From: Rubricoccus marinus
GTDB lineage: Bacteria > Bacteroidota > Rhodothermia > Rhodothermales > Rubricoccaceae
Assembly (NCBI RefSeq): GCF_002257665.1
Contig: NZ_MQWB01000001.1
Location: 2,341,492 to 2,405,491 of the forward strand
Direction: 5' to 3'
Length of the DNA stretch: 64,000 nt
The notes beneath the pieces are model-generated. The model was not told the origin of the DNA, made no database searches, and saw nothing but the letters and a program-made list of their open reading frames with translations. Every line of letters starts with the position of its first letter. Position 1 is the first letter of the stretch. A program made the translations under genes and the position numbers. Shown in pieces: positions 7,755 to 23,839 of the stretch.

Positions 7755-7771
7755 AAAGCTTCTCCGGGCTC

Positions 7772-7789: not shown

Positions 7790-7820
7790 TTCGGAACCTT
7801 TCGCGGCGTCTCGGTCCAAC

Positions 7821-7847
7821 TCTTCCCTCTTCCCTCTTCCCTCTTCC
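7821..7847 (+). repeat. Heptamer tandem array (TCTTCCC)x3.9
   Basis: Nearly four copies of a pyrimidine heptamer end 2 bp before the ATG of the DUF4126 gene, so they make up its leader, as at 4032-4056. Confidence 0.9.
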
Positions 7848-7849
7848 GC

Positions 7850-8320
7850 ATGGACACCCCTACCGCACTTTCCGCCGCCGCGCTCGGCTGGGTTGCTGGG
7901 ATGCGCAGCATGACCGCGCCCGCTCTCACCGCCGCCGCGCTGGGCTCTCGCCAGAGGCAGACGCCCGCCCGTCAGCTCAGCTCGCCTCTGGCGCAGCGCC
8001 TCTTCGCGTTCGCCGCCGCGGGCGAGATGGTCGGCGATAAGCTGCCGATGACGCCGTCGCGGACGGACGCGATGCCTCTGGCGGGGCGCATCGGCTCGGG
8101 CGCGCTTGTGGGCGCGGCGGTCGCGGCCGCCAGAGGCCACTCACGGATCGGCGGTGCGCTGGTCGGGAGCGCGGCGGCGCTGGCGTCGTCGTTTGTGATG
8201 GAGCGCGCGCGAGCCCGCGTCGGGGAGGCGACCGGCACGCCGGACCCGGTCGTCGCCGTCGCGGAGGACGTGCTGACGGTCGTCGTGGGAAGCGCGGCGG
8301 CGGGCGCCGTTCGGCGCTGA
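7850..8320 (+). CDS. DUF4126-family membrane protein
   Basis: A 156-residue protein matching the DUF4126 pattern: an N-terminal 'GWVAGMRSMTAPALTAAALG' segment, a central 'GEMVGDKLPMTPSRT' loop, then glycine/alanine-rich hydrophobic helices (about residues 83-98, 102-116 and 143-154). Members are small integral membrane proteins of unknown role. The iterated word has been written into it at least four times in different phases (SRQRQ, SSPLAQ, MPLAGR, AAARGHS), all in loops. The start is fixed by the adjacent heptamer array. Confidence 0.8.
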   Translation: MDTPTALSAAALGWVAGMRSMTAPALTAAALGSRQRQTPARQLSSPLAQRLFAFAAAGEMVGDKLPMTPSRTDAMPLAGRIGSGALVGAAVAAARGHSRIGGALVGSAAALASSFVMERARARVGEATGTPDPVVAVAEDVLTVVVGSAAAGAVRR

Positions 8321-8352
8321 GCCGCGCCGCCAGCCTCTGGCGTGCCTCGTTG

Positions 8353-8360
8353 TAGGTTCA
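8353..8360 (+). promoter_or_regulatory. Promoter -7-like box TAGGTTCA
   Basis: TAGGTTCA ends 24 nt before the ATG of the TlpA-like gene, the commonest spacing for this box in the window. Confidence 0.5.
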
Positions 8361-8384
8361 GAGACACGTCACCTCTGTGGGACC

Positions 8385-9830: not shown

Positions 9831-9852
9831 CCCGCCAGAGGCCTCTGGCGGG
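9831..9852. terminator. 22-bp palindrome directly after a stop codon
   Basis: A perfect palindrome, CCCGCCAGAGG joined to its reverse complement, begins on the base after the TlpA-like stop codon. It is the extended version of the CGCCAGAGGCCTCTGGCG palindrome. No T-run. Confidence 0.5.
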
Positions 9853-10071
9853 CGTGCGGGGAGATCTCCCTGCGATGGTGAACTGGGCCGGGTCAGCCGA
9901 GCGTTGAACGTGCAGGCAGACGACGTAGCTCCCAGGTCGCACGTCTTCCGTGCCGCTGGCGAGACATACGTAGCGCTCCTTCAGGGACACGCGACGGCTC
10001 CTTCACCCGGGCTTCCCGCCCTCGTAGGAATCCGCGCCGCCCCAGGGCGGGTACGGGCCTTTCCACGCACA

Positions 10072-10089
10072 GCCTCTGGCGCCAGAGGC
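10072..10089. repeat. Iterated 18-bp palindrome
   Basis: GCCTCTGGCGCCAGAGGC, 16 bp upstream of the ABC ATPase start. The 275-bp spacer 9831-10105 holds this and the palindrome at 9831 and no convincing gene. Confidence 0.9.
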
Positions 10090-10105
10090 CACTCCTGAGG
10101 CCCGT

Positions 10106-10888
10106 ATGGCAGTAGACCGACCGCATCCCGCCCTTTCCGTCCGCGACCTCGCGAAGACGTTTGACAGCGGCGGGCGCCCACTGACCGTCCTCAATGGCGT
10201 GAGCTTCGACGTGGCGCCGGGCGACACGCTCGCCATTGTCGGCCCGTCTGGGAGTGGCAAGACTACTCTTCTCGGCCTTGCTGCTGGGCTGGACCGGCCC
10301 TCGCGCGGCAGTGTGACCCTCGCCGGGACCGACCTCGGCCCGCTTAGCGAAGACGCCCGCGCCCGCCTCCGCGCGCAGCACGTCGGCTTCGTGTTTCAGA
10401 GCTTCCGCCTGCTTCAGACGCTGACGGCGCTGGACAACGTCGCCGTCCCGCTCGAGCTCAAGGGGGCCTCTGGCGCCAGAGGCGTCGCGAGGGACCTGCT
10501 GGAGCGCGTCGGGCTGGGAGACCGGACCGACCACTACCCGACGCAGCTTTCGGGCGGCGAGCAGCAGCGCGTGGCCGTCGCGCGCGCCTTCGCGGGCCAG
10601 CCGGCCCTCCTCTTTGCCGACGAGCCGACCGGCAACCTCGACGAGGCCACAGGCGCCCGCGTGGAGGACCTCTTGTTCGACCTCAACCGCGAGGCCGGGA
10701 CCGCGCTCGTCGTCGTCACGCACGACCTGGAGCTCGCCGCTCGGTGCAGCCGCGAGATCCGCCTCCGCGGCGGTCAGGTGGAGTACACCCGCGACGCGCC
10801 AGCCACCGACGCCGACCCGGGGGCGCCAGAGGCCGAGACGCCAACCCCACGCCAGGCCGAGACCACCACGCCAGAGGCTACCCGATGA
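10106..10888 (+). CDS. ABC transporter ATP-binding protein (LolD/YbbA type)
   Basis: A 260-residue ATPase with Walker A GPSGSGKT (residues 46-53), Q-loop in 'VGFVFQSFRLLQ', signature LSGGEQQRVAVARA and Walker B LLFADEPTGNLD, followed by an H-loop 'VVVTHD'. This set is typical of the MacB/LolD/YbbA clade, which moves lipids, lipoproteins or peptides rather than small nutrients. It overlaps the permease start in ATGA, so the two form one transporter. The C-terminal ~35 residues (TDADPGAPEAETPTPRQAET) are a low-complexity tail built partly from the iterated word, and one full palindrome encodes GASGARG near residues 121-127. Confidence 0.92.
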   Translation: MAVDRPHPALSVRDLAKTFDSGGRPLTVLNGVSFDVAPGDTLAIVGPSGSGKTTLLGLAAGLDRPSRGSVTLAGTDLGPLSEDARARLRAQHVGFVFQSFRLLQTLTALDNVAVPLELKGASGARGVARDLLERVGLGDRTDHYPTQLSGGEQQRVAVARAFAGQPALLFADEPTGNLDEATGARVEDLLFDLNREAGTALVVVTHDLELAARCSREIRLRGGQVEYTRDAPATDADPGAPEAETPTPRQAETTTPEATR

Positions 10889-13398
10889 AGATCCTGCCTC
10901 TGGCGTGGCGCGACAGCCGCGGGATGCGGCGGCGCCTGGTGCTGTACGTGTCCGCGATGGCGATGGGCGTGGCCGCGCTTGTCGCGCTCCGCTCGTTTGG
11001 CGAGAACCTCCGCCGAGCCGTCGAGGAGCAGACCATCGAGGTCTTCGGCGCCGACGTGCAAGCGCGCCGCGGCGCACCGTTCCGCGCGAAGGACGACGCG
11101 CTCTTGGACTCCGTGGCCACCGCGTTCGACGCCGCGCTCGTGCGCGAGACCTCGTTCCCGAGCATGGCGCGCTTCCCGAAGTCCGGCCGGACCCGGTTCT
11201 CGCAGATCCGCGCGATGGACGGCCCGTACCCGCTCTACGGAACCGTCGACGCGTTCCCCGAGGACGCCGTGGAGCAGTGGCAAGCCTCTGGCGGCGCGCT
11301 CGCCGACGCGTCGATGCTGCTCCAGATGGACGCCGAGATCGGTGACTCCGTCGCCGTTGGCGGCGTGACCTACGCCATCGTGGGGCGCGTAGACCGCGTG
11401 CCGGGGCAAAGCGATGTGGGCGCCCTCGTGGGTCCGCAACTCTACCTCCCCCGCGCCTCGCTGGACTCGACGTTGCTCAGCCTGGGCTCGCGCGTGCGCA
11501 GCACGGCGTACTTCCGCGTGGACGGCATGCGCCCGATGCACCGCCTCGCGACGATCCTCGACGCCAGAGGCTACCGCGTGGAGAAGGCGAAGGACGAGCA
11601 GGCGGAGTGGACCGAAGGGACCGCCGACCTCGCGCGGTACCTCTCGCTTGTCGGCGTGGTCGCGCTGCTTCTCGGCGGGCTGGGCGTGGCGAGCGCGATG
11701 GGCGTCTACGCCCGCGAAAAGGCCGAGACCGTAGCGACGCTCCGGTGCCTCGGTCTGAGTTCGTGGCGCGTGCTGGGCGTGTACGCCGCGCAGGCCGTCG
11801 CGCTGGGGCTCGTCGGCGCTGTTCTGGGCGTGGTTCTCGGGCTGGGCGTGCAACGGCTCCTGCCGCTGGCGCTGGGCGCGTTTCTGCCCGTGACGGTCAG
11901 CAACGAAGTCGTGCCTCTGGCGCTGCTCGAAGGGCTGGGCGTGGGTGTCGTGGCGTCCGTCCTCTTTGCACTCCTGCCTCTGGCGGGGGTCCGGCGCGTT
12001 CCGCCGCTGCGCGCGCTCCGCTCCGACGTGAGCGCCAGAGGCGTCGACCCGCTCCAGGTGTTGCTCGCGCTTTTGCTCATCGGCGCAGCGTACGGCTTCG
12101 TGTTTGTGCAGACGCGGGACTGGCGCATCGCGCTCGGCTTCCTCGGCGGTATGGGCGCGGCGTTCGGGCTCCTGGCGGCGATGGCGGCTCTCGTGCGGCG
12201 CCTCGCCAGAGGCTTCGCGCGGCCGTCGATGCCATACGTGTGGCGGCAGGGCATCGCCAACCTCCACGCGCCCAACAACCAGACCCTCGTGCTGCTGCTC
12301 TCGCTCGGGCTGGGCGTTTTCCTCATCCTCACGCTCGGCCTCACGCAGAGCTCCATCTTGGACAGCCTCCGCCTCCCGACCGAAGGCGAGAACCCGGACG
12401 TGGTCTTTTTCGACGTGCAGCCAGACCAGGCCGACAGCCTGCGCTCGATCCTCGCGAGCGAGAGCGTCCCGATTCTTACCGAGGTGCCTATCGTGACGAT
12501 GCGCATTCAGTCCATCGACGGGATTCCGACCGACACGCTCCGCGCCGATACGACCGACGGCAGCCCGGAGCGCTGGGCGATCTCGCGCGAATACCGCTCC
12601 ACCTACCGCAGCGCGCTCACCGATACCGAGGTCGTCACCGCGGGCACGTTCGAGGGGAGCGTCCCGCCAGAGGCCGAGATCGTTCCAGTCTCGATGGACC
12701 AGGACGTGGCGGGCGACCTCGGCGTCGGGCTGGGCTCGCGGATCGTGTGGGACATCTCGGGCGTGCCGATCGAGAGCGAGGTGACGAGCCTGCGCGAGAT
12801 CGACTGGGCGCAGGTGCAGCCCAACTTTTTCGCCGTCTTCCCCGAGGGGCCTCTGGCGGAGGCCCCGCAGACGACGGTCCTGCTGACCCAGACGGGCTCG
12901 CCCCAGGCCTCGGCGCGCATCCAGGGCCGTGTGGTGGAGGCGTTCCCCAACGTCTCGGCGGTGGACGTGCGGCAGGTGCTCGCGTTGGTCCAGAAGGTGC
13001 TCGGGCAGATCGCGTTCGCGCTGCGCTTCCTGGCGTTTTTCGCCGTGGCCACAGGCCTGGCCGTGCTCGGCAGCGCCGTCCGGGTCGCGCTCTCGCGGCG
13101 CACGCGAGAGGCCGTTTTGCTCCGCACGCTCGGCGCGAGTCGGTCGCAAGTGCGCCGCATCGTCGTCGCGGAGTACGCGGGGCTGGGCTTTCTCGCCGCG
13201 CTCGTCGGCGGGGTCCTGGCCGTCGCCTCGGCGTGGGCGCTCGCGACGTACTCGTTCAAGATCCCGTTCCAACCCAATGCCTGGTGGCTGCTCGCGACCG
13301 CCGTGCTGGTGCCGGTTCTCGTCGGCGCTGTCGGCGTGCTCGGCAGCCGGTCGGCTCTCGCGAAGCCCCCGCTGGACGTGCTGCGGGCGGAGGAGTAA
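10885..13398 (+). CDS. FtsX-type ABC transporter permease (YbbP-like)
   Basis: An 837-residue permease with two FtsX repeats. The first has a TM at ~13-33, a large periplasmic domain ('FGADVQARRGAPFRAKDD...') and a three-TM block around residues 250-390. After a middle pair of TMs (~395-450) the second repeat follows, ending in a three-TM block at ~700-830. This 10-TM layout is that of YbbP, partner of YbbA. Many of these systems export lipids or toxic amphiphiles. It starts within the ATPase stop codon. Iterated-word peptides (PLA, ARG, ASG) fall mainly in loops. Confidence 0.88.
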   Translation: MKILPLAWRDSRGMRRRLVLYVSAMAMGVAALVALRSFGENLRRAVEEQTIEVFGADVQARRGAPFRAKDDALLDSVATAFDAALVRETSFPSMARFPKSGRTRFSQIRAMDGPYPLYGTVDAFPEDAVEQWQASGGALADASMLLQMDAEIGDSVAVGGVTYAIVGRVDRVPGQSDVGALVGPQLYLPRASLDSTLLSLGSRVRSTAYFRVDGMRPMHRLATILDARGYRVEKAKDEQAEWTEGTADLARYLSLVGVVALLLGGLGVASAMGVYAREKAETVATLRCLGLSSWRVLGVYAAQAVALGLVGAVLGVVLGLGVQRLLPLALGAFLPVTVSNEVVPLALLEGLGVGVVASVLFALLPLAGVRRVPPLRALRSDVSARGVDPLQVLLALLLIGAAYGFVFVQTRDWRIALGFLGGMGAAFGLLAAMAALVRRLARGFARPSMPYVWRQGIANLHAPNNQTLVLLLSLGLGVFLILTLGLTQSSILDSLRLPTEGENPDVVFFDVQPDQADSLRSILASESVPILTEVPIVTMRIQSIDGIPTDTLRADTTDGSPERWAISREYRSTYRSALTDTEVVTAGTFEGSVPPEAEIVPVSMDQDVAGDLGVGLGSRIVWDISGVPIESEVTSLREIDWAQVQPNFFAVFPEGPLAEAPQTTVLLTQTGSPQASARIQGRVVEAFPNVSAVDVRQVLALVQKVLGQIAFALRFLAFFAVATGLAVLGSAVRVALSRRTREAVLLRTLGASRSQVRRIVVAEYAGLGFLAALVGGVLAVASAWALATYSFKIPFQPNAWWLLATAVLVPVLVGAVGVLGSRSALAKPPLDVLRAEE

Positions 13399-13459
13399 GG
13401 GAGCGGCACAGAGGCGCCTGGCGCCAGAGGCGAACGGCCTTTCGCCACTTCCCTTTCGC

Positions 13460-14557
13460 TCACACCTTGTAGCCCCACGCGTCGAACGCGTCGCCCCAGG
13501 CGCGGCCAAGCCTCTGGCGTAGCGCGTGGTCCAGCATAGTCTGCGGCGCAGGTGTGAACGGAGCCTCTGGCGCCAGAGGCGGCGGCGTGCCGAGACCGAG
13601 CGCGCGGTACACGTGGTCCAAGGTCGCCAGAGGCGACGCGGTCAGGTCGTCGTACGCGACTTCCACCAAGTGCCCGTCCGGGATGGACGTGCGGGCGTCG
13701 AGGTAGGCGTGCATGGTCTCGCGGAACGTGCCGACGACGGCGCGCTCCATGTCCGGCGCGCCAGAGGCGTGGAACGTGGCCGCAGGCAGCGTGATGCCGA
13801 TAAGACGGCGCATAGACGCGAAAACATCCAGCGGGTGCCGGTGGACGAACACGAACCGCGCGTCGGGGAACAGCGCGAGGAGGTGCGGAATCTTGGCCGT
13901 GTGCGGCGGCGACTTGAGCACGAGCCGCTTCCGCCTCTGGCGCGTGAGCAGCCGCGTGAACTGGAGCATCGCGCCGCGCCACGCGTCGACCTCGGCGCCA
14001 GAGGCCTCGTCGAGCGTGAGAAAGCGCTCCAGCGCGTCCCAATTGCGAGGGAAGGCGTAGCGCAGGAGGTGGCTACAGCCGGAGAGCGCGCAGATGGCGA
14101 ACTCGTCCTCCATCGGCATGTCGGGCGAGACCTCGACGGCGTCGAACACGCGCGTGGGCGGTAGAACCGCACGAAGCCTCTGGCGCAACGTGCGCTCGGC
14201 GACGGCGAACGTCCAGGGGTTAGTGGCCTCCAACAGCGTCGGCGCGTGGAACAGCGGATCGCGCGCGAGGAGATTGTGCAGCCGCGTCGTACCCGATCTG
14301 TAGTGGCCGAGCACGAACACGGGCGCCTCGACGCGGATGTCAGAGAGATCGCCGGCGGCACGCCTCTGGCGTTCGGCCCATTTGTCGGACTCCCGCGCGG
14401 CGAGTCCCGTTACGACCGCGCGAGGCCAGTACCGCGCATCAACGCCGTGCGTGGTGCGCAGGCGGCGCCAGAGGCCTGGGCGGACGCCCGCGAGGACGCC
14501 GGGCGAAAGCCAGTGATTGAGTGCGCGGTGCCGGAGGCTCGGACGGACGGTGGACAT
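13460..14557 (-). CDS. Sulfotransferase-family protein
   Basis: A 365-residue protein with the 5'-phosphosulfate-binding loop GHYRSGTT (residues 84-91) of PAPS-dependent sulfotransferases and a later 3'-phosphate motif region 'FVFVHRHPLDVFASMRRLI'. It would move a sulfuryl group from PAPS to an unknown acceptor. Family members act on carbohydrates, lipids and proteins. It is divergent from the GNAT-like gene at 14600 and about 2 kb from the P450/alpha-oxoamine synthase run, so a link to sulfated or sulfonated lipid is possible but unproven. Two copies of the palindrome sit in or beside it; one encodes 'PPLAPEAPF'. Confidence 0.82.
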   Translation of the reverse strand: MSTVRPSLRHRALNHWLSPGVLAGVRPGLWRRLRTTHGVDARYWPRAVVTGLAARESDKWAERQRRAAGDLSDIRVEAPVFVLGHYRSGTTRLHNLLARDPLFHAPTLLEATNPWTFAVAERTLRQRLRAVLPPTRVFDAVEVSPDMPMEDEFAICALSGCSHLLRYAFPRNWDALERFLTLDEASGAEVDAWRGAMLQFTRLLTRQRRKRLVLKSPPHTAKIPHLLALFPDARFVFVHRHPLDVFASMRRLIGITLPAATFHASGAPDMERAVVGTFRETMHAYLDARTSIPDGHLVEVAYDDLTASPLATLDHVYRALGLGTPPPLAPEAPFTPAPQTMLDHALRQRLGRAWGDAFDAWGYKV

Positions 14558-14578
14558 GGGTCAGGCGTGCAATCGACG

Positions 14579-14596
14579 GCCTCTGGCGCCAGAGGC
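14579..14596. repeat. Iterated 18-bp palindrome in a divergent promoter gap
   Basis: GCCTCTGGCGCCAGAGGC between the sulfotransferase start (14557) and the GNAT-like start. Its AGAGG half lies 4 nt before the GTG at 14600 and might pair with the ribosome. Confidence 0.85.
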
Positions 14597-14599
14597 GCG

Positions 14600-15760
14600 G
14601 TGGTAGTCTCTGGCCTGTCCCACCTCCGTGTTCGCGTGGCCCTTGACGTCCGCCCCGTCCAGACTCGCCGCGAGAGGCGCGCGTTCCTCGCGCTTCCCTA
14701 CCGGCTCTACCGCGGCACGCCCTGGGTGGCCCCGCTCCGGCGCGATCAGCGGGCGCTGCTGAACCCGAGGAAGAACCCGTTTTTTGAGCACGGCACGCTT
14801 ACGCCGTTTCTCGCGTGGCGCGACGGGCGCGTGGTGGGACGCGTGGCGGCCATCACCAACGGGCGCTACAACGAGCGCCACAGCGACGGCGCGGCCTTTT
14901 TCGGCTTTTTCGATGTCGAGGACGACCGCGAGGCTGCCGTCGCGTTGCTCGACACGGCCCGCGAGCATCTCGCCGCCGGAGGCTATGCCCGCGTTCGCGG
15001 CCCGTTCAGCCCATCCTTCCACGACGTGGCAGCGCTGCTCGTGGACGGCTTCGACCGGCGACCGGCGCTCATGATGCCGTACAACCCGGAGTACCTCGTG
15101 GGCCATGTCGAGGCCGCCGGGTTCGAGACCATCCTGACGCTCTCGTCCTACCACGCGGCGTGGAAGCACCTCGACCGACAGAGGCTGGCGCGCGGCGCCG
15201 CGCTCGTCCGCCAGAGGCACCCCGGGCTTCGCCTCCGCGCGGCCGACCCCGGCCTCTGGCGCCAGGAAGCGTTGGTCATCCGCGACCTGTACGCCCGCGC
15301 CTTCGATGACACCCCGCACTGGGTGCCGCTGAGCGATGCGGAGTTCGACCACATGGAGCGCGGGATGCGCGAAGTGCTGGATCCTCGGCTCGTGCTGATT
15401 CTGGAAGACGACGGCGAGCCCGTCGGCTTTTTCCTCGCGCTGCCTGACGCCAACGAGGTGTTGCAGCATAATCCGTCGGGCCGCCTGTTTCCGGGTGCGA
15501 TCTCGCTCATGCTCCGGGCGAAGCTGGCGCCGCCGCGCACCTTCCGCACGATCCTGCTCGGCGTGCTCCCCGAGGTGCGCCGCCGCGGCTACGAAACCAT
15601 CCTCATCCACGAGCTCATCGAGCGCGGCCGCCTCGCGGGCTACCCGGCCTCTGAACTCGGCTGGGTGATGGACACGAACGCGACGCTTACGCACGCCATC
15701 GAGAAGTTCGGCGGGGTGCGCGACAAGCGGTACGCCGTAGTGGAGCGGAGCGCGACATAA
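14600..15760 (+). CDS. GNAT-fold protein of unknown substrate
   Basis: A ~386-residue protein. The C-terminal half has a GNAT acetyltransferase look: a strand 'PVGFFLALPD', then 'RTILLGVLPEVRRRGYETILIHELIERGRLAGY', which resembles the acetyl-CoA loop and following helix, and a last strand 'ELGWVMDTN'. The N-terminal half ('RAFLALPYRLYRGTPWVAPLRRDQRALLNPRKNPFFEHG') matches a family of ~375-residue uncharacterised bacterial proteins. No ATG lies near the N-terminus. GTG 14600 and GTG 14636 are both possible; 14636 gives a 374-residue protein starting just before the conserved region. Function unknown. Confidence 0.75.
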   Translation: MVVSGLSHLRVRVALDVRPVQTRRERRAFLALPYRLYRGTPWVAPLRRDQRALLNPRKNPFFEHGTLTPFLAWRDGRVVGRVAAITNGRYNERHSDGAAFFGFFDVEDDREAAVALLDTAREHLAAGGYARVRGPFSPSFHDVAALLVDGFDRRPALMMPYNPEYLVGHVEAAGFETILTLSSYHAAWKHLDRQRLARGAALVRQRHPGLRLRAADPGLWRQEALVIRDLYARAFDDTPHWVPLSDAEFDHMERGMREVLDPRLVLILEDDGEPVGFFLALPDANEVLQHNPSGRLFPGAISLMLRAKLAPPRTFRTILLGVLPEVRRRGYETILIHELIERGRLAGYPASELGWVMDTNATLTHAIEKFGGVRDKRYAVVERSAT

Positions 15761-15772
15761 GAGACGGGCCGA

Positions 15773-15789
15773 GCCTCTGGCGCCAGAGG
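15773..15789 (+). repeat. Iterated palindrome (17 of 18 bp)
   Basis: Follows the GNAT-like stop by 12 bp. Possible terminator hairpin. Confidence 0.8.
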
Positions 15790-15821
15790 ACTGCCTTCGT
15801 TCCATTCGCCGCCCCTCGACT

Positions 15822-15859
15822 TGTCATCCCGAACGAGCGAAGCGAGGAGGGATCCCCCA
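15822..15859. repeat. REP-like repeat, left copy
   Basis: Begins TGTCATCCCGAACGAGCG and continues AAGCGAGGAGGGATCCCCC. An inverted, diverged copy lies at 16218-16254, so the two flank the GIY-YIG gene. Sequences of this type (TCATCCCGAnCGnAGCGAGGGATC) are common intergenic repeats in many bacterial genomes. Confidence 0.8.
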
Positions 15860-15869
15860 ATTCGTGCCG

Positions 15870-16175
15870 TCACGCGGTCCCGCCAGAGGCCTCTGGCGGG
15901 GAGAGGTCCCGCAGGTCAGGGTTCTCGCGCTGGACCAACGCCAGCTTCTTCGCGCGGCGCCAGCCTTTGATCTCCTTCTCACGCGCGATGGCATCCCGGG
16001 CCCATCGGTGCTCTTCGGCATAGACGAGCTTCGTAACGCGATACCGAGACGTGAACCCTGACCTGCCGCTCCTGTGCTCAAATAAGCGGCGCTCGATGTC
16101 GTTTGTGACGCCAACATAGAGCACGGTGTCGTAGCGGTTGGCGAGGATGTAAACCCACATCGGCTTCATGCTCAA
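15870..16175 (-). CDS. GIY-YIG (URI-domain) endonuclease
   Basis: A 101-residue single-domain protein of the small GIY-YIG group. The core is complete: VYIL...VLYVGVT, where the GIY/YIG tyrosines are represented by Y9 and Y20, R29, 'SRYRVTKLVYAEEH' with the metal-site Glu, and 'AIAREKEIKGWRRAKKLALV'. This subfamily is small, widely spread, and usually found beside repeats rather than in operons. Here inverted REP-like copies lie on both sides and a 22-bp palindrome is coded in its last residues (PPEASGG). The ATG at 16169 (MKPMWVYIL) is the likelier start. A mobile or repeat-associated nuclease is suggested, not shown. Confidence 0.88.
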   Translation of the reverse strand: MSMKPMWVYILANRYDTVLYVGVTNDIERRLFEHRSGRSGFTSRYRVTKLVYAEEHRWARDAIAREKEIKGWRRAKKLALVQRENPDLRDLSPPEASGGTA

Positions 16176-16217
16176 GAGTACGAATTCGGCCTGAAGCGGA
16201 GAGGCTGACTCCTACAT

Positions 16218-16254
16218 GGGAGATCCCTCGTCGCTGCGCTCCGTCGGGATGACC
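16218..16254. repeat. REP-like repeat, right inverted copy
   Basis: Reverse complement reads CGAGGTCATCCCGACGGAGC followed by GCAGCGACGAGGGATCTCCC; compare the left copy at 15822. Together they bracket the GIY-YIG gene. Confidence 0.8.
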
Positions 16255-16287
16255 TCGTGGGGGGAGTGCAACTACAGGAGGCAGTCA

Positions 16288-16305
16288 GCCTCTGGCGCCA
16301 GAGGC
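16288..16305 (-). terminator. 18-bp palindrome abutting the P450 stop
   Basis: GCCTCTGGCGCCAGAGGC starts on the base after the P450 stop codon (16306-16308 on the minus strand) and ends the six-gene run. A hairpin end is likely, but no T-run is present. Confidence 0.55.
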
Positions 16306-17619
16306 TCAGGTAGTCCGCACGTCCAGCCAGACCGGGCCGGAGGGGCGCAGCGTGGTCCGCGCCGCGAGGCCGGGGAACGGCGACACGGGCGCGAGGCGAA
16401 TACGGGCCATCAGGGCGCTCAGGACCTGCTCGCCTTCCATCCACGCGAGGCGCTCCGCGAGGCAGCCGTGGCGGCCCGCGCTAAACGGGAGGTAGGCGAA
16501 GCGGTGCCGCTCGGCGGTCGCCTCTAGCGCGAACCGGTCGGGGTCGAAGCGCGCGGGATCGCGCCAGAGGCGTGGCTCCCGGCCCAGCACCCACGGGCTC
16601 ATGAGCACGACGGTGCCTCTGGCGAGCGGGACGCCCGCGAGCGTCGTGTCGCGCACGGCCTCGCGCGAGGCCACCCACGCGGGAGGGCGGTGGCGCATGG
16701 ACTCGGCGAACACGCGCCGCGCGGTTTCTCCTCCGCCAGTGGTGTCATCGGCGCCAGAGGCGATCCGTTCCTGCCACTCGGGATGCCGCGCGAGGTCATC
16801 GAGCGCGAAGGCCAACCCGGCGCCGGTCGTCTCGTGGCCCGCCGCCAGGAGTTGGAGTGCCTGGCCGCGCGTGGCCTCTGGCGACAGCCCACCCTCGCGC
16901 TCCCACGCGAGCAAGTGGCCGAGCACGTCGCCGCGTTCGTCTCGCCTCTGGCGTCGCGCGTGGAGGATCGCGTCGGTCGTGCGCCAGAGGCGGGCGCGGG
17001 CGCGGAGAAGGCGCCGCGTGCCGGGTGTCGGCAAGCGGTTCAGGATGTCGGCGAGCGGGTTGAACGTGCGGCCGAACAGAGGCAACGCGGCGTCCAGAGC
17101 ACCTAAGATGGCATTGCGTTCACCAGAGGCGAGGCTGTACCCGAACAGCACGTCGGCGGCGATGTGGAGCGAGAGGCGCCGCATCTCCCACTCCGCATCG
17201 ACGCGGCCTCTGGCGATCCACTCCTCCGCCAGCGCGTTGGCGCGAGAGGCGATGCGCGCGCCGAGAGCGTCGAGCCTCTGGCGTGAGAAGGCGGGCGCGA
17301 GGCGGCGGCGGGCCTCGCGGTGCGCCTCTCCGCTGTCGGTGAGGAGGCCGTCGCCGAGCAAGAACTCGGTCATGACCAGCGCGCGGCCTCGCACCAGATC
17401 GGTCTCGCGCTCCACCAGCAGTTCCCGCGCGGCCTCTGGCGACCCGACGGCGGCCACCCATCGCGGCCCCGCCCGTAGCCGCGCGACGTGCGCGCCAGAG
17501 GCCGTCAGCCGGTCCAGCAGCGCCAGAGGATCGCGGCGGAACGCGAGGAGGAGTTCGCCGGGGTAGCGGCCTCGGAGCGTGAAGAGGTCCGGGCGCTCGA
17601 TCACGCGGTCGTCCGTCAT
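16306..17619 (-). CDS. Cytochrome P450
   Basis: A 437-residue P450 monooxygenase. The oxygen-binding I-helix motif AGHETT is at 260-265, the K-helix ExxR is E306-S-M-R309, and the haem thiolate Cys is C386 in FSAGRHGCLA. The residue two places after the Cys is Ala instead of the usual Gly. No membrane anchor is visible, so it should be soluble and needs separate redox partners, which are not in the window. The ATG overlaps the stop of the upstream FemAB-like gene in ATGA. Eleven copies of the iterated word were counted in this 1.3-kb gene, far more than in conserved genes such as parE. Confidence 0.9.
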   Translation of the reverse strand: MTDDRVIERPDLFTLRGRYPGELLLAFRRDPLALLDRLTASGAHVARLRAGPRWVAAVGSPEAARELLVERETDLVRGRALVMTEFLLGDGLLTDSGEAHREARRRLAPAFSRQRLDALGARIASRANALAEEWIARGRVDAEWEMRRLSLHIAADVLFGYSLASGERNAILGALDAALPLFGRTFNPLADILNRLPTPGTRRLLRARARLWRTTDAILHARRQRRDERGDVLGHLLAWEREGGLSPEATRGQALQLLAAGHETTGAGLAFALDDLARHPEWQERIASGADDTTGGGETARRVFAESMRHRPPAWVASREAVRDTTLAGVPLARGTVVLMSPWVLGREPRLWRDPARFDPDRFALEATAERHRFAYLPFSAGRHGCLAERLAWMEGEQVLSALMARIRLAPVSPFPGLAARTTLRPSGPVWLDVRTT

Positions 17620-18851
17620 GGGCTCTGGCGAAAAACGCGGCGCGGCGGCACGTCCCATCGCGGGAACAGCGCGGGCGCGGCGCGCGCCAGAAGCCGTTGC
17701 GCCCACGGCGTGCGCGCTTTGAGGAACAGCCAGCGGTCGGTCGGCACGCCGCCGAGGCGGGTCTTGAGCGCGTAGCTCGTCTGCCCGAGTTCGACCGCCG
17801 AGTAGCCTCTGGCGAGCGCGTCTTCGATGACCGAGACCACGAGCGCGGGGTACGCGCCGAGCGGTTCGGCCCGGCCGTAGTCGATGCCCGCAAGAAGAAA
17901 AACGGCCGTATCGGATCCGTAGAGCGTGAGCGCCATCGCCAGAGGCCCGGCGTCGTCTTCGAGGACGAGCACGGCGGAGTCGCCTGCGTATCGCTCGGCC
18001 AGGGCGTGGAAAAAGCCCGCGCCGAACCGCTCCAGCTGGTACGGCGCTCGGTCCATCACACGCGCATAGAGGCGGTAGAATGCCTCGGCCTCTGGCGCCC
18101 AGTTCTCTATGCGGCGGAGCCGCAGCCTCTGTCGCGCGACGAGATCGGCATCGAGTTGGCGACGGTAGCCGGACCGCATCGCGGCGCGAAATGCGGTGTG
18201 TGTGGTTGGGGGTGTGTGAGTGTGGGGAGGACGCGTTTCGGGTTGCGCACCTTCACTCCCCTCCCCACTCGATCCCTCGAACCCCAGCCGGACGCCGGGC
18301 ATGCTCGGGAGACGCAGGAACCCTCGCGACGCCAGAGGCCCGGCCAACGCGTCCGCTTCTGGCGTGGTGAACTCCTTGGCGCAGAGCAGTGGCGTGCTCC
18401 AGGTCTCTGCCTGCGCCTCCATCCTATCCACGAGCGCGTGGACCAGCCTCTCGCGCTCAGACTCGGGCATTTCTGGCGCGAGCCGGACACCGGGCTGGGC
18501 GAACGACGCGGGCAGTCCGGCGAAGAGAACCGGCACGCGCAAGAGGCGCGGCCACAGGCGCCGGGCGCGCGAGATGGCGCCGCGGAACGGCGTCGGCGAA
18601 AGCAGGTCGAGGCGCACGTCGAGGCGCGAGAGCTCGGCAGCGAGCGCGGGCTCGCCCGAAGTGGAGCGGAGCAACAGGCGCTCAAATCGGGCTCCCTCCA
18701 CCCCGCCCCGCTCCACGCAGTCGGCAAAGCGCGACTCCGCAAGAGGGTGGTCGGCTCCCGCGAGCGTGTCCCACGCCTCGCGCTCCGCCTCTGGCGCCAG
18801 AGGCGGAGGGACCGCGGGCGGCGAGAACGCTGCGGTCGCCAGAGGCCTCAC
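17616..18851 (-). CDS. FemAB/GNAT-fold acyltransferase-like protein
   Basis: A 411-residue protein whose C-terminal part (~250-411) resembles the Acetyltransf_6 (CelD/BcsL, FemAB-related) domain: 'SGYRRQLDADLVARQRLRLRRIENWAPEAEAFYRLYARVM', 'PLAMALTLYGSDTAVFLLAGIDYG', 'ARGYSAVELGQTSYALKTRLG'. Such domains transfer acyl or aminoacyl groups. Residues ~218-240 (PETRPPHTHTPPTTHT) are a low-complexity insertion. I chose the GTG at 18851, which overlaps the alpha-oxoamine synthase stop as GTGA; the frame also extends upstream to 19001 inside that gene. Its place between the synthase and the P450 suggests it modifies the synthase product. Confidence 0.75.
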   Translation of the reverse strand: MRPLATAAFSPPAVPPPLAPEAEREAWDTLAGADHPLAESRFADCVERGGVEGARFERLLLRSTSGEPALAAELSRLDVRLDLLSPTPFRGAISRARRLWPRLLRVPVLFAGLPASFAQPGVRLAPEMPESERERLVHALVDRMEAQAETWSTPLLCAKEFTTPEADALAGPLASRGFLRLPSMPGVRLGFEGSSGEGSEGAQPETRPPHTHTPPTTHTAFRAAMRSGYRRQLDADLVARQRLRLRRIENWAPEAEAFYRLYARVMDRAPYQLERFGAGFFHALAERYAGDSAVLVLEDDAGPLAMALTLYGSDTAVFLLAGIDYGRAEPLGAYPALVVSVIEDALARGYSAVELGQTSYALKTRLGGVPTDRWLFLKARTPWAQRLLARAAPALFPRWDVPPRRVFRQSP

Positions 18852-20179
18852 GCCGGAACGGGCGCGCACGCCGCGAGAGCGGCGCAGATCGCGTCGATGT
18901 CCTCTGGCGTGTGGAGCGCGGTCGCGCAAAGGCGAAGCCGCGCCGCGCCTCTGGCGACGGCCGGGAAGACGACGGCCGTGGCCCAGACGCCATGCTCCCA
19001 CAGGTCGCGCGCGAGCCGGTACGCCGCCTCGTCATCGCCAACAACGACGGGCACGATGGGCGACGCGCTCGCGCCCACGTCGAAGCCCGCCGCCTGCACG
19101 CCCTCGCGCAAGAGGTCCGCGTTGCGCCTGAGCGCCGCGTGCCGCTCGGGCTCGCGCTGCATCACGCCGAGCGAGGCCAGCGCCGCAGCCGTGGAGGCGG
19201 GTGCGAGAGCCTGCGAAAAGAAGAACGGCGCCGCGCCGTGCTGAAGAAACGCGCCCACGTCGGCGCCGCAGGCCACGAACCCGCCCGAAGCGCCGAGTCC
19301 TTTCGAGAGCGAGCCCGTCCACAGATGCACGCGCGACGGGTCCACGCCGAGCGCGCCCCAGCTCCCCTCGCCTCTGGCACCGACCGCGCCCAGCGCGTGC
19401 GCTTCGTCCACCATCACGTACGCGCCGTGCCGCTCCGCCGTCTCCACGATCTCCGCCAGAGGCCCGAGGTCGCCGTCCATCGAGAACACGCCCTCGGTCA
19501 CGACGAGCGTCTTGCGGGCCTCTGGCGCCGCTTCGCTCAGCACCCGGTCCAGGTGCTCCACGTCATTGTGGCGCCAGAGGCGGACGGGCACGCGCGCGAG
19601 GCGACAGCCGTCCACGATGGAGCGGTGACAACGCGCGTCGAGCACGGCCACGTCGTCTGGCCCGAGCAGCGCCGCGAGCACGGCCACGTTCGCGAGGTAG
19701 CCCGACGAGAATGCCAGCGCGGCGCCCTGACTGTAGTGCGCCGCAAGTGTCGCTTCCAGCTCGCGATGCAGGTCGCACGTCCCGGTCAGGAGCCGCACGC
19801 CGCCCGTCCCCACCCCGAACCGCTGCACCGCGTCCGCCGCTGCGCTGATCACGTCGGGGTGCGACGCCAGGCCCAGGTAGTCGTAGCTGCTCGCGGACAC
19901 GACCTCGCGCCCACCCACGTCGGCGCGCGCGCCCGGCGGCCCCGCCAGAGGCTGGCTGTACGTGTACAGGTCCGCCCGCCGTCCCCAGCCGACGGTCTGC
20001 ATCCACCGTTCCGCCGTCGCGCCCGCGATGAGGCCGCTGGCGTCTGGGTCTTCGGAGTCGAAGAGGCCGTCGAAGGGGTCGTGGAGCACGAGGTTGAGGG
20101 TATTGGGAGAGGTGCGAGGGACGGTACACCCGTCGCCTCTGGCGCCAGAGGCGCAGACGCCTCGCGTCCGTCTTCTCAC
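18848..20179 (-). CDS. PLP-dependent alpha-oxoamine synthase (BioF/SPT-like)
   Basis: A 443-residue fold-type I PLP enzyme of the family that condenses an amino acid with an acyl-CoA (8-amino-7-oxononanoate synthase, serine palmitoyltransferase, CAI-1 synthase). Seen: H139, D258 and H261 (VDEAHALGAVG) and the Schiff-base lysine K293 in 'GSLSKGLGASGG'. No other biotin gene is nearby, so a lipid or signal role fits the operon better than BioF. Rhodothermia such as Salinibacter make capnine-like sulfonolipids through such an enzyme, which is one possible product here. The GTG at 20179 overlaps the upstream stop as GTGA; GTG 20089 is an alternative that drops a palindrome-coded N-terminus. Confidence 0.83.
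   Translation of the reverse strand: MRRRTRGVCASGARGDGCTVPRTSPNTLNLVLHDPFDGLFDSEDPDASGLIAGATAERWMQTVGWGRRADLYTYSQPLAGPPGARADVGGREVVSASSYDYLGLASHPDVISAAADAVQRFGVGTGGVRLLTGTCDLHRELEATLAAHYSQGAALAFSSGYLANVAVLAALLGPDDVAVLDARCHRSIVDGCRLARVPVRLWRHNDVEHLDRVLSEAAPEARKTLVVTEGVFSMDGDLGPLAEIVETAERHGAYVMVDEAHALGAVGARGEGSWGALGVDPSRVHLWTGSLSKGLGASGGFVACGADVGAFLQHGAAPFFFSQALAPASTAAALASLGVMQREPERHAALRRNADLLREGVQAAGFDVGASASPIVPVVVGDDEAAYRLARDLWEHGVWATAVVFPAVARGAARLRLCATALHTPEDIDAICAALAACAPVPA
20135..20152. repeat. Iterated 18-bp palindrome near a start codon
   Basis: GCCTCTGGCGCCAGAGGC, either coding CASGARGD at residues ~9-16 of the alpha-oxoamine synthase (start 20179) or lying in its leader (start 20089). 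Confidence 0.9.
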
Positions 20180-21990
20180 ACGCTGGAAGGCGGCAACGTC
20201 GGTGTACGCGTGGTCCGCTGCGCGAGAGAATCGCCCTTAAGCGCCTCCCCGCTCACACTCTCAAACCCTACCGGCGGCGCCCCGGCCTGCCCGTCGCCAG
20301 AGGCCGCGGGCCACGAGAGGCCGGCTGGGAGCTTGCCCTTGTCCTGCGCCTGCCGGATCGCGCGCGGCGAGTGGTGCGTGTGGAGGTTGCGGAACTGGAA
20401 CCAGATGGAGAGCGCGCCCTTCCACAGCCGCAGATATGCTGGGCTCCAGATCGGTGGTCGCGTGCGCAGGCTGAGCGCCTGGGCGCGGCGCATGTCGAGC
20501 GTGGATCGGACGTAAACGCCGAGCAGACGGCGGTAGAACCGCTTGAGCGACATCCGCGTCGGCAGGACCGCGTGCGAGAGGTCCCAGAGCCCGTGCGCGT
20601 CGCGCGGGATCACGATGTCATCCTCATGGTCCTCCCACTGGCCTGTGCCCGGCAGCGGCGTGAGCGGCGAGATGTTGAGGTAGTACAGGCCCGTCTCGTT
20701 GATAAAGTCCTGCAGCCGGTCCCAGTCCGCGTCGGTGTAGTCCGGGTGCGGGATGAGGGAGCCGTAGCAGTCCACGCCGTGCTTTTGCAGGATCGCGATG
20801 GCCGTTCGGTTGTAGTCCACCGAGCACTCCTTGTTCATCGACACCAACTCGTCGTCGGTCGCCGCCTCCAGGCCCACGATGATGGCCGAGAGGCCGAGCT
20901 CGGACCATTCCTCGATGATGTCCTCGTTCTCCGAGATAAAGTCCGCCCGCGCGTAGATGAGGTACTTCTTCCGGATGCCTCTGGCGCGGAGCAGCGCCGC
21001 GATCTTGTCCAGCCGCTTTCGGTTGATGAGGAAGATGTCGTCCACGATGTAGACGTCCTCCGTCTCGATGGTCTCCAACTCGTCCACGATGGACTCGGGA
21101 GAGCGCGAAAAGGGCGTGCCGTCCGTGATGGTCCACGTAAAGCAGAAGTTGCAGCGGAACCAGCAGCCCCAGGTCGTCTTCATCGTCGTGACCGGACGAT
21201 GGAAGAGGTAGTAGTAGCGGTCGCGGAGGTGCGCCACCAGATCCCGCCGCGGAAACGGCAGCGTATCCGGCGGCGGCATGTAGTGCTTCGTCGTCGCCGT
21301 CTTTTCCACCTGCCGCGGGCCGACGGGAATCGCGAGCCCCGAGATCTCGCGCAGCGACGTGGCCGCTGGCGCCGTCGGATGCCTGAGCGCGTCCTGTACG
21401 GTTTTCCCCGCCTCGCCTCTGGCGCCAGAGGCAGCCGGCCCCTCCCGTAGGGACACACCGCTAGCGTGTCCTTCCGGCGTCCCGCCAGAGGCGGCGCCAT
21501 CGCCGGAGGCCTCTGGCGCGACGGCTTCGCCAGCGGCTTGCCACTGCCCACTGGCTACTCGCTCCTTCCCTCCTTCCTCCTCACCCCACACGTCCAGAAC
21601 CTGCTGGATCACCGTCGTCCCATCGCCCGTCACGATCACGTCCACCGAAGGGTCCGCGAAGTCCTCTGGCGCCCGCGCCGCGTGCACGCCGCCGACGATG
21701 GTCTTGCAGTCCAGGCTCCACCGCTTCGCCGCCCGGCAGATCTTTTTGACCTCGTTGACGCCGTTGATGTAGCACGACGTGCCGACGACATCAGGCTTGA
21801 ATCGCTTCAACCGGCGCTCCAGTCCCTTCCTGTCCCAGCCCTTTTCGAGGATCAGGTCGATGATCTCGATTTCGTGCTCGGGACTGATCCCAGCCGCTAC
21901 GTACTCCAGTTCGAGCGGCTCGCAGATCATGATGTGCTTCAGCCCGACGGTGTGTTTGGGGACCGGCGGACGAACGAGGAGGATGCGCAT
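20176..21990 (-). CDS. B12-binding-domain radical SAM protein with a long insertion
   Basis: A 604-residue enzyme: an N-terminal cobalamin-binding-like Rossmann domain (~1-135; the cofactor His motif DxHxxG is not obvious), a radical SAM barrel with the 4Fe-4S motif C276-x3-C280-x2-C283 (GCWFRCNFC), and a C-terminal helical region. Enzymes of this class methylate or cyclise unactivated carbons, often in lipids and natural products. Residues ~137-213 form an insertion between the two domains, rich in ASG, PEA and ARG, which come from many copies of the iterated word plus a REP-like hairpin (21450-21470). It heads the overlap-joined run of four genes. The ATG at 21990 matches the family start MRILLVRPP. 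Confidence 0.87.
   Translation of the reverse strand: MRILLVRPPVPKHTVGLKHIMICEPLELEYVAAGISPEHEIEIIDLILEKGWDRKGLERRLKRFKPDVVGTSCYINGVNEVKKICRAAKRWSLDCKTIVGGVHAARAPEDFADPSVDVIVTGDGTTVIQQVLDVWGEEEGGKERVASGQWQAAGEAVAPEASGDGAASGGTPEGHASGVSLREGPAASGARGEAGKTVQDALRHPTAPAATSLREISGLAIPVGPRQVEKTATTKHYMPPPDTLPFPRRDLVAHLRDRYYYLFHRPVTTMKTTWGCWFRCNFCFTWTITDGTPFSRSPESIVDELETIETEDVYIVDDIFLINRKRLDKIAALLRARGIRKKYLIYARADFISENEDIIEEWSELGLSAIIVGLEAATDDELVSMNKECSVDYNRTAIAILQKHGVDCYGSLIPHPDYTDADWDRLQDFINETGLYYLNISPLTPLPGTGQWEDHEDDIVIPRDAHGLWDLSHAVLPTRMSLKRFYRRLLGVYVRSTLDMRRAQALSLRTRPPIWSPAYLRLWKGALSIWFQFRNLHTHHSPRAIRQAQDKGKLPAGLSWPAASGDGQAGAPPVGFESVSGEALKGDSLAQRTTRTPTLPPSSV
21450..21470. repeat. REP-like hairpin inside a coding region
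   Basis: GGACAC and GTGTCC flank ACCGCTAGC, within the radical SAM insertion. It resembles common intergenic repeats of the form GTAGGGACACnCCGCTAGCGTGTCC and is read through in frame. Confidence 0.6.
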
Positions 21991-22020
21991 CTGTCGAGTG
22001 GGAGAGTGTGGGCGGAGAGG

Positions 22021-22039
22021 GTTTGAGGGTGGCTCAAAC
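22021..22039. promoter_or_regulatory. Inverted repeat GTTTGAG-N5-CTCAAAC
   Basis: Perfect 7-bp arms, 31 bp upstream of the radical SAM start at 21990 and overlapping the 3' end of the four-helix bundle gene. Could be an operator for the four-gene run or a hairpin after the upstream gene. Confidence 0.4.
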
Positions 22040-22468
22040 TGGGAATTCGGATCCTCTGGCGGTGTCGTACCCGACGACGGGTTCGCGGGCGCCAGAGGCC
22101 AGGCTGCACCGCCGCGCGCTGTCCCGCTGCATCGTGACGAGGCCCCCGATAAGAGCGTGGTAGCGCACGTCTAACGCGTTGTGCGTTGCCGCGTCGACGT
22201 GGCCGCAGTCCAGCGCGACGTCTAGCCATGCCCGGCATTCGCACGCCTCGGCCTCTGCGTCGCTCAGCTTGCTCGCGAAGTGCTTGGGGTAGCGCCTCTT
22301 GCGCCATGCCTCCGCCGTATTCGCCATGACAGAGCGCGACGCCCGCCGGATCTGGTCCGTCAGGCTATACCTCTCCTCCCGTGGCCACGCTTTCGAGAGC
22401 GCATAGATCTCCCGTGCCAACGCGCGAGCGTCGCCGTACACCCTGAGATCTCTGAAGGAAGTCACCAT
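22034..22468 (-). CDS. Four-helix bundle protein (S23/IVS family)
   Basis: A 144-residue protein of the 'four helix bundle' (23S rRNA intervening-sequence protein) family: 'FRDLRVYGDARALAREIYALSKAWPREERYSLTDQIRRASRSVMANTAEAWRKRR' is the standard N-terminal pattern, with later helices 'FASKLSDAEAEACECRAWLDVALDCGH' and 'YHALIGGLVTMQRDS'. Members form pentamers; no enzymatic role is known. The gene sits alone-like between two radical SAM genes on the same strand (gaps of 36 and 43 bp) and may be an insertion into the cluster rather than part of its pathway. ATG 22468 fits the family start better than 22492. Confidence 0.82.
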   Translation of the reverse strand: MVTSFRDLRVYGDARALAREIYALSKAWPREERYSLTDQIRRASRSVMANTAEAWRKRRYPKHFASKLSDAEAEACECRAWLDVALDCGHVDAATHNALDVRYHALIGGLVTMQRDSARRCSLASGAREPVVGYDTARGSEFPV

Positions 22469-22504
22469 CGCTCTACAGTTGGACACCCACACACCCCTCC
22501 CCGC

Positions 22505-23839
22505 TCACACGATCCCCGGCGTGATCCGACGCTTGATGTGGTCGCGGTAATGGAAGTTGACGCCCCATACAAAGCCCCGCATAAGCGGGCCGTGGCGCGG
22601 CGGATTGAAACCGACGCGGTGGGCGATGGCCCGGCGCGTGAAGAGGCGCTCGTAGAGGTCCCAGTAGCCTGCCTGAAGGGCCTCTGGCGTGAAGTTCTTC
22701 GGCTGGTACACCACCTTGCCGCCGGAGAAATTGCCGAAGTCCGTAGTGCTGATGCGGCCTTTCGCGTCCATCTCCTTGTAGAGTGGAGTGCCGGGGATGG
22801 GCGTCATGATGTGGACACGCGGGACCGAGATCGCGTTCTCCATCAGGAAGGTGTAGGTGCGCTCGAAGATGTCCGCGCCGTCTCCGTCCAGTCCGACGAT
22901 CATCTCAGTCGAGACGTCGATGCCGTTGCGGCGGAGCGCGTGGATGGCCTTGCTGTAGCGCTCGGGTTGGTTCCAGGCCTTGTCCACGCCCTCCAGGCTT
23001 TCAGGGTTCACCGACTCGATGCCGAACGAGAGCAGCCGGCACCCGGATTTCCGCGCGAGGCGCATCAGGTCCTCGTCTTCCGCGATCTGCAGGCTGCACT
23101 GGCTCATCCACAGGATCCGCTCCGGGATCAGCGCCTCGAACAGCTCGGTCGCGTACTTCCGGTCGATGCCGATGTTGTCGTCGATAAACGCGATGTATTT
23201 GCTCCCGGCCTTTTTCGCTGCGCGCACGTCGCGCACGACCTGATCGACGGGCCTCTTGCGATAGCCCTGGTCGAAAAACGCCGTGATGGAGCAAAACGAG
23301 CACGTAAACGGGCAGCCACGCGTGGCCTGGACTGGGCGCCAGAAGCCGTAGCGCTTGTCCGCCATCAGGTCGTAGCGCGGGAGCGGGAGTTCGCAGATGT
23401 TGGGCCGCTCCGTCATGCGGTAGATGCGCTTGAGGTCGCCTCTGGCGGCGTCGGCCAAGACCTCCGGCCAGACGTGCTCCGCCTCGCCGATCACGACCGA
23501 GTCGGCATGCTGAAGGTGCAGCTCAGGGTCGGAGAGCGAGGCCGCGATGCCGCCGATGACCACCTTGACGCCTCTGGCGCGAAAGCCCTCGGCGATGCGC
23601 CACGCACCGACGATGCCCGAGCCCATACCCGTCAGGCCGACCAGGTCCCACGGCTCATCGTAGGGCACGCTCTCGACGGTCTCGTGGCAGAGCCGGATGT
23701 CGACCCAGTCTGGCGTCACGGCCGCCAGCATGGGCAGCGTGAGACCCGGCAGGTGGACGCGCTTCTGCTTGATGGGCCGCCCCTCGGCGTCCAACGCAGT
23801 CGGGCCGACGAGGAGGACTCGAAAGCGGGGTTCAGCCAT
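22505..23839 (-). CDS. B12-binding-domain radical SAM protein
   Basis: A 444-residue enzyme with an N-terminal B12-binding-like domain (~1-140; 'DLVGLTGMGSGIVGAWRIAEGFRARGVKVVIGGI') and a radical SAM domain with C176-x3-C180-x2-C183 (GCPFTCSFC). Later motifs 'IAFIDDNIGIDRKYATELFEALI' and 'LLSFGIESVNPESL' are typical of the YgiQ/HpnJ/BchE-like group. The C-terminal 'GGKVVYQPKNFTPEALQAGYWDLYERLFT' is also family-typical. It carries few iterated-word copies, so it is under stronger constraint than its neighbours. Likely first gene of the lipid/natural-product cluster; substrate unknown. The ATG at 23839 removes a non-conserved 46-residue extension. Confidence 0.87.
   Translation of the reverse strand: MAEPRFRVLLVGPTALDAEGRPIKQKRVHLPGLTLPMLAAVTPDWVDIRLCHETVESVPYDEPWDLVGLTGMGSGIVGAWRIAEGFRARGVKVVIGGIAASLSDPELHLQHADSVVIGEAEHVWPEVLADAARGDLKRIYRMTERPNICELPLPRYDLMADKRYGFWRPVQATRGCPFTCSFCSITAFFDQGYRKRPVDQVVRDVRAAKKAGSKYIAFIDDNIGIDRKYATELFEALIPERILWMSQCSLQIAEDEDLMRLARKSGCRLLSFGIESVNPESLEGVDKAWNQPERYSKAIHALRRNGIDVSTEMIVGLDGDGADIFERTYTFLMENAISVPRVHIMTPIPGTPLYKEMDAKGRISTTDFGNFSGGKVVYQPKNFTPEALQAGYWDLYERLFTRRAIAHRVGFNPPRHGPLMRGFVWGVNFHYRDHIKRRITPGIV

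Follow-up and report, generated by a model that had tools for sequence, protein, structure and literature searches.

A recurrent gene block of Rubricoccus marinus with paired cobalamin radical SAM enzymes, read as a possible ceramide-type lipid pathway

Which product is made by a set of genes that joins two cobalamin (B12)-binding radical S-adenosylmethionine (SAM) enzymes to an alpha-oxoamine synthase (AOS), a tandem GNAT transferase and a cytochrome P450? The question is raised by a locus in a 64,000-nucleotide stretch of the Rubricoccus marinus genome (contig NZ_MQWB01000001.1, positions 2,341,492 to 2,405,491), the whole of which is called the window below. The reading that we favour, with modest assurance, is that this locus encodes a horizontally mobile, parallel pathway for a ceramide-type (sphingolipid-like) lipid. 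The conserved block, the clade of its AOS, the homology of a nearby acyltransferase (GNATb), a swap of the first-step enzyme between loci and a patchy distribution are established, and every reaction is inferred from them. The genes concerned are the following, in coordinates of the window.

22505..23839, minus strand: rSAM2, B12-binding radical SAM enzyme, BchE/PhpK/ApyD-like, ATG start
20176..21990, minus strand: rSAM1, B12-binding radical SAM enzyme, HpnR-like, with B12-binding and radical SAM domains
18848..20179, minus strand: AOS, like serine palmitoyltransferase (SPT), putative first step; Aminotran_1_2, BioF/KBL/SPT superfamily, GTG start
17616..18851, minus strand: GNATa, tandem GNAT transferase of predicted FemX/MprF fold; PF13480
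16306..17619, minus strand: cytochrome P450, likely hydroxylase, variable member of the cluster; PF00067, E 5e-51
about 14636..15760, plus strand: GNATb, homologue of YghO/bacterial ceramide synthase, by YghO homology

A block shared by fifteen loci

The minus-strand genes are transcribed in the order rSAM2, a four-helix gene, rSAM1, AOS, GNATa and P450; past the P450 come a GIY-YIG gene, GNATb on the plus strand and then a sulfotransferase gene. The four genes from rSAM1 to the P450, on which the preliminary description of this DNA was built, are open and of the classes it stated, and each overlaps the next by 4 bp (GTGA, GTGA and ATGA at the three junctions). As it also said, another B12/radical SAM gene (22505-23839) lies ahead of them, followed by a four-helix gene of PF05635 (22034-22492). 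The CxxxCxxC motif is carried by rSAM1 as CWFRCNFC (residue 276) and by rSAM2 as CPFTCSFC (residue 176); the latter enzyme matches PF04055 at E 5e-20, and PF02310 at 28.6 bits, under the cut-off. The PLP (pyridoxal phosphate) lysine of the AOS is intact, as are the FxxGxxxC and AGHETT motifs of the P450.

The comparison covers 15 loci, namely the window, L035-L047 and L097, all of which were chosen for having rSAM1. The block recurs in the 14 loci other than the window, so that the grouping is more than chance and the possibility that the genes are not co-conserved in any relative is answered. The rSAM2-rSAM1 pair is found in all 15, and GNATa and GNATb each in 13: GNATa is missing from L035 and from L039, which ends 0.9 kb past its AOS, while GNATb is missing from L035 and from L038, which begins inside rSAM2. 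Each locus holds exactly one amine-forming PLP enzyme, the AOS in ten and a fused aminotransferase-reductase in five (four flavobacterial loci and L097, from Gemmatimonadota), never both or neither. In this fused enzyme, a class-III aminotransferase is followed by a C-terminal Rossmann part; the flavobacterial copies are 856-946 amino acids long, and the nearest named family is PigE, at 270 bits against a cut-off of 850. Variable members are the P450 and an MMPL exporter (8 loci each), a short-chain dehydrogenase/reductase (SDR; 4) and, in 3 loci each, a lipid kinase of the diacylglycerol kinase (DAGK) type, a fatty acid desaturase and a PEMT-like plus methyltransferase. The distance matrices of the proteins correlate, with r of 0.53-0.87 over ten family pairs (rSAM1-rSAM2 0.87, rSAM1-AOS 0.84, GNATa-GNATb 0.80), which is what joint movement of most of the block would produce. 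In the KSB1 locus L035 (3328-11802), a decaying copy is seen, with a second rSAM2 fragment, an AOS cut to 260 amino acids and no GNATs found.

The limits of the cluster differ from those first drawn: the four-gene core stands, GNATb belongs to it from outside, and the four-helix gene does not. Three genes of the window are in none of the 14 other loci.

22034..22492, minus strand: four-helix/23S rRNA-IVP protein, PF05635 (E 7.5e-28), probably a late insertion between rSAM2 and rSAM1, outside the pathway
15870..16175, minus strand: GIY-YIG protein, a neighbour only, without conserved membership
13460..14557, minus strand: sulfotransferase, PF13469, a neighbour only, without conserved membership

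The occurrence of the block is very uneven. GNATa is encoded in one of the 114 genomes of the window's own order, and in its phylum 2 of 296 genomes have an rSAM1 match beyond E 1e-50, the one besides the host (genome G271) being 34% identical with no further cluster gene within 16 kb. At E 1e-100, matches are found in 3/196 genomes of the order of the L044 genome, and in the phyla of L037 (1/294), L039 (2/249, one of them newly found and listed here as L097), L036 (1/40) and L035 (2/82, one a 42% relative without the block). A search of contigs with exact peptide patterns from the rSAM1 core gave 31 matches, 13 of them relatives at 58-72% identity, whose titles name KSB1, Calditrichia, Planctomycetota, Eisenbacteria, Gemmatimonadetes, ANGP1, Zixibacteria, Proteobacteria and flavobacterial lineages; the cluster is also in named flavobacterial strains, namely Aestuariivivens sediminicola MTV5-3 (L044), A. 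sediminis S-DT1-15 (L046) and Flavobacteriaceae bacterium S0862 (L047). In every group searched the genes are thus very rare, and yet rSAM1 of the window shares 52-66% identity with its relatives from other lineages, a pattern in the sequences that suggests spread by horizontal transfer. Searched against plasmids, GNATa and rSAM1 found a single distant GNAT, from Nostoc, and 39 records whose matches have less than 60% identity, several of them annotated as HpnR, HpnJ or BchE. The Nostoc locus (L034) has a GNATa-like and an AT-III-like gene and neither radical SAM gene; on this plasmid of Nostoc sp. C052, positions 5584-16605 hold a lipid-like cluster of SDRs, a nitric oxide synthase oxygenase, a desaturase, a class-III aminotransferase, an SRPBCC protein, the GNATa relative and a formyltransferase.

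A ceramide-type lipid or a secreted natural product

The best match of the AOS in the Protein Data Bank (PDB) is SPT (8guh/3a2b, 262 bits), 3a2b being the enzyme of Sphingobacterium multivorum. In a tree of 47 rows, the ten cluster AOS form one clade (SH-aLRT 99), which is joined by L064 (97) and then by SPT/CFAT-like rows (93), with E. coli KBL and BioF falling elsewhere; it is a sister clade, outside that of the characterised SPTs. The trees were built by a quick method with SH-aLRT support only and long branches flagged, the L035 AOS and L041 GNATb being fragments; the AOS tree omitted seven second readings of cluster AOS, and only ten of the relatives' loci L002-L030 entered it. The enzyme lies under every NCBIfam equivalog cut-off, including those for SPT (318.6, 311 and 251 bits against 500, 640 and 670), and the native SPT-like protein L054 of the window's order likewise stays below the SPT cut-offs. 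The PLP lysine, the stacking histidine and the Asp, His and Arg residues are kept in the nine full-length cluster AOS. The true start of the window's AOS may lie downstream of the annotated GTG.

The second line of evidence is GNATb, which is homologous over its full length to K-12 YghO (377-column alignment, 28% identity, E 1e-47); its start is uncertain, with an in-frame GTG at 14567, 14600 or 14636. According to passages of PMC9386255, yghO (ECD_02850) and CC_1154 are 'aca', the acyl-CoA N-acyltransferase of dihydroceramide synthesis, and a passage of PMC11324152 states that dihydroceramide needs CC_1154. The ceramide gene set of E. coli BL21 sits in one place. A similar coupling is seen in the window's order, where an SPT-like gene (the top AOS match once the window's own is set aside) lies next to a YghO homologue on the same strand, at a distance of 39-544 bp, in 52 of 60 genomes. 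The host genome (G000) is not among these: its native SPT-like gene is at C1:2440791 and its native YghO homologue at C1:851141, so the AOS-GNATb pair of the window is extra. Among other cluster-bearing genomes, a YghO homologue stands beside the non-cluster AOS in four of five loci (L060-L063, not L064). As seen in the GNATb tree, the window's copy groups with the native, SPT-linked copies of its order (99) and not with the GNATb of the other clusters, which themselves are not one clade. It seems from this grouping that a ceramide-synthase-type gene was recruited repeatedly beside the block, and the expectation that the window's GNATb had moved with the cluster is contradicted.

For GNATa, PDB sequence searches gave no informative relative, nor did they for GNATb. 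An AlphaFold model of GNATa from 13 sequences (pLDDT 86.1, pTM 0.84) was compared by Foldseek and VIA-align 2, in lists that bear only on the folds they contain. FemX (4ii9) ranks first, with a Z of 22.5 and a root-mean-square deviation (rmsd) of 4.3 over 304 aligned residues, followed by FemA and the aminoacyl-tRNA-dependent peptide synthases Sba18/Sbb17 (Z about 21, rmsd 3.1-3.6), then by MprF/aaPGS (Z about 18) and N-myristoyltransferases (Z about 17). The invariant residues include GQT, K363 and G367 (GQT....K...G). On this modelled fold, GNATa likely transfers an amino-acid or acyl group.

Taken as a pathway, the AOS, judged by its clade, would condense an amino acid and a fatty acyl thioester, giving a long-chain base of the 2-amino-3-ketone type, and where it is replaced, the aminotransferase-reductase would form the amine instead. 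GNATb, by its family and by the coupling of that family to SPT, may then N-acylate the base, and GNATa could add a second acyl or aminoacyl group, a guess based on fold. The chain would be oxidised by the P450, a presumed hydroxylase, or by a desaturase, and rSAM1 and rSAM2, from their class, may modify an unactivated lipid carbon, most probably by C-methylation as HpnR does.

Several observations weigh against such a lipid. The Asn53 position is Tyr in nine and Cys in one of the ten cluster AOS, with Tyr also in L064 and Asn in the other 36 rows of the tree; the replacement indicates a changed amino-acid pocket, and the substrate, as far as sequence can tell, may not be serine, while some SPTs have Tyr there as well, according to a passage of PMC9304779. 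Judged by the tree, GNATb of the window is a paralogue related to the native copies of its order and did not travel with the rest. No homologue of AcpR, AasR or the epimerase CerR, which belong to the rhodobacterial sphingolipid gene set, was found in the 15 loci with BL21 protein queries at E 1e-6, and there is no SDR match near the window's cluster. Moreover, the PigE-like aminotransferase in the place of the AOS in five loci also fits an amine natural product, and the patchy occurrence is compatible with secondary metabolism too.

These last points lead to the strongest rival, in which the product is not a membrane lipid but a secreted small molecule, an amino-ketone or long-chain amine with peptidyl or acyl decoration, exported by the MMPL proteins of the relatives. 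The proximity of the GNATa fold to Sba18/Sbb17 and the presence of the P450 and of MMPL in 8/15 loci each speak for it, along with the PigE-like enzyme and the very patchy distribution; against it, no gene for a nonribosomal peptide synthetase, a polyketide synthase or a precursor peptide was recognised among the annotated selection of genes, and the ceramide-synthase homologue in 13/15 loci, with DAGK, desaturase and SDR neighbours, points to a lipid. We regard this product as unlikely on balance, yet to be kept in view. The earlier proposal of an amino-acid/acyl-derived lipid is supported as to the pathway class, a lipid-like natural product included, by the AOS clade beside SPT, by GNATb and by the SDR, DAGK, desaturase and MMPL neighbours elsewhere; its pointer to capnine-type sulfonolipids lacks such support, as discussed next.

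The radical SAM pair, weaker alternatives and the host decamer

A capnine-type sulfonolipid had been suggested by the alpha-oxoamine synthase chemistry common to CFAT and SulA and by a sulfotransferase about 2 kb away. The latter is at the window only, in none of the 14 other loci, and SPT outscores both CFAT (28eh, 199.5 bits) and SulA (7u7h, 178.5 bits) as a match of the AOS. As proposed in a passage of PMC9304779, Lys281 of SulA, which is Ala in SPT, separates SulA/CFAT from SPT. At this position, the nine cluster AOS that cover it have Ala (6), Gly (1), Ser (1) and, in the window, Gln (1), never Lys; the flavobacterial paralogues L078-L080, from genomes that also hold the cluster, do have Lys and serve as a positive control. 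With this lysine missing and the sulfotransferase in no other locus, the sulfonolipid reading is not supported, and in a host with its own SPT-like gene elsewhere, we consider it improbable.

Might the cluster instead modify hopanoids, with rSAM1 as an HpnR-type hopanoid methylase? HpnR (TIGR04367) is the best NCBIfam model of rSAM1, at 206.4 bits, far under its cut-off of 650, and the constant partners are PLP and GNAT enzymes, with no hopanoid gene recognised among the annotated selection; this makes it very improbable. The best model of rSAM2 is BchE (98 bits against 481). Among solved structures, the nearest to rSAM1 in sequence are 6fd2 (apramycin oxidoreductase 4) and TokK, and those nearest to rSAM2 are 9ccb, 6fd2 and CysS. 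Methylation or rearrangement of unactivated carbons is known from several of these classes, so that C-methylation comes first as a guess for the pair. The pair may be a unit of its own, as relatives of both rSAM1 and rSAM2, about 42% identical, occur without an AOS or GNAT within 16 kb in genome G1232, which belongs to the phylum of the KSB1 genome; in this locus (L114, 1945-7361), a methyltransferase-like gene is followed by the rSAM1-like, the rSAM2-like and a third radical SAM gene.

It is scarcely credible that the AOS is merely a BioF or KBL of biotin or threonine metabolism among unrelated neighbours: the bioF model TIGR00858 does score highest of all, at 376 bits, below its cut-off of 426, while the tree sets the enzyme apart from E. 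coli BioF and KBL and the block is conserved in 15 loci. The sulfonolipid, hopanoid, BioF/KBL and unrelated-neighbour readings are set aside on the evidence given with each.

A short repeat of the host genome is seen within the genes as well. The window's rSAM1 has a host-specific insert of about 75 residues (about 137-213; window 21350-21582), missing from 13/13 aligned relatives and rich in the peptides ASGAR, APEA and LWR, which are the 10-mer GCCTCTGGCG read in different frames; peptides of this origin are also encoded at 20130-20179 (the N-terminus of the AOS) and 14567-14636. The exact 10-mer has 7049 + 7127 = 14,176 copies in the 4.43-Mb genome G000 (reversed control 61), 99 in the same-genus genome G001 (control 101) and 6-77 in ten other relatives, and so looks unusually dense and species-specific. 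The window holds 255 copies, 4 per kb, with flanks not conserved (e.g. at 10072, 13563, 14579, 16288, 18787, 20135 and 21415), and 24 neighbouring copies are 8 bp apart, mostly as overlapping inverted pairs forming GCCTCTGGCGCCAGAGGC. It resembles an uptake-sequence or HIP1-like motif; among the literature matches listed, none apparently treats it as a repeat, judged by title. Local patches of this 10-mer on contigs C91 and C130 of G003, a related family member, are perhaps transferred or misbinned DNA. Elsewhere in the window, ARAGORN calls a tRNA-Cys at 40135-40222 with the anticodon aca in place of the usual gca, which may be false.

Comparison with known systems

Four known systems share single elements with the cluster. 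Sulfonolipid synthesis (SulA/CFAT) has an alpha-oxoamine synthase of the same wider clade; its diagnostic lysine is absent from the cluster, and the sulfotransferase near the window's genes is not conserved. HpnR, the hopanoid C-3 methylase, shares the B12-binding domain and radical SAM core of rSAM1, which differs by always pairing with rSAM2. FemX, MprF and the aminoacyl-tRNA-dependent peptide synthases share the predicted fold of GNATa at about 15% identity, and fold alone does not show the use of aminoacyl-tRNA. The fused enzyme found in place of the AOS has PigE, the prodigiosin aminotransferase, as its nearest named family, and scores far under the PigE cut-off.

The closest system is the bacterial ceramide pathway (Spt-bCerS-CerR; CC_1162/1154/1164; spt-yghO in E. 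coli BL21), with which the cluster shares an SPT-like AOS and an N-acyltransferase of the YghO/bCerS family. The cluster differs in its separate AOS clade with Tyr or Cys for Asn, its two B12-radical SAM enzymes, its GNAT of predicted FemX fold and its P450; no acyl carrier protein, AasR or CerR was found in the block, and the same genome has an ordinary SPT-like gene besides. A Black Sea survey (PMC11334938), from whose main text words starting 'radical' and 'P450' are absent, describes a wide 'Spt-like' clade that spans many phyla and has bCerS and CerR nearby. Judged by titles and the openings of abstracts, none of the papers found in searches of the open literature describes radical SAM tailoring of sphingolipid-type lipids, and the listed literature naming both 'radical SAM' and 'serine palmitoyltransferase' has nothing apparently about such a cluster.

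Could the cluster define a new class of ceramide-like lipids? In such a case, a mobile module with a fixed cobalamin radical SAM pair would act on alkyl chains (a methyl branch, a ring or a chain-to-chain C-C bond), be fed interchangeably by an SPT-like synthase or an aminotransferase-reductase and be finished by FemX-type transfer of an amino acid or acyl group; we offer this as a tentative and rather doubtful proposal. If a ceramide-type pathway is the correct reading, the block is a compact, transferable gene set with which lipidomics could look for new lipids of membranes or of signalling, and in environmental genomes it would serve as a marker of unusual lipids. From the comparison with the literature, the cluster is therefore best placed, pending its product, as a variant of the bacterial ceramide-type pathway and not as a categorically new system.

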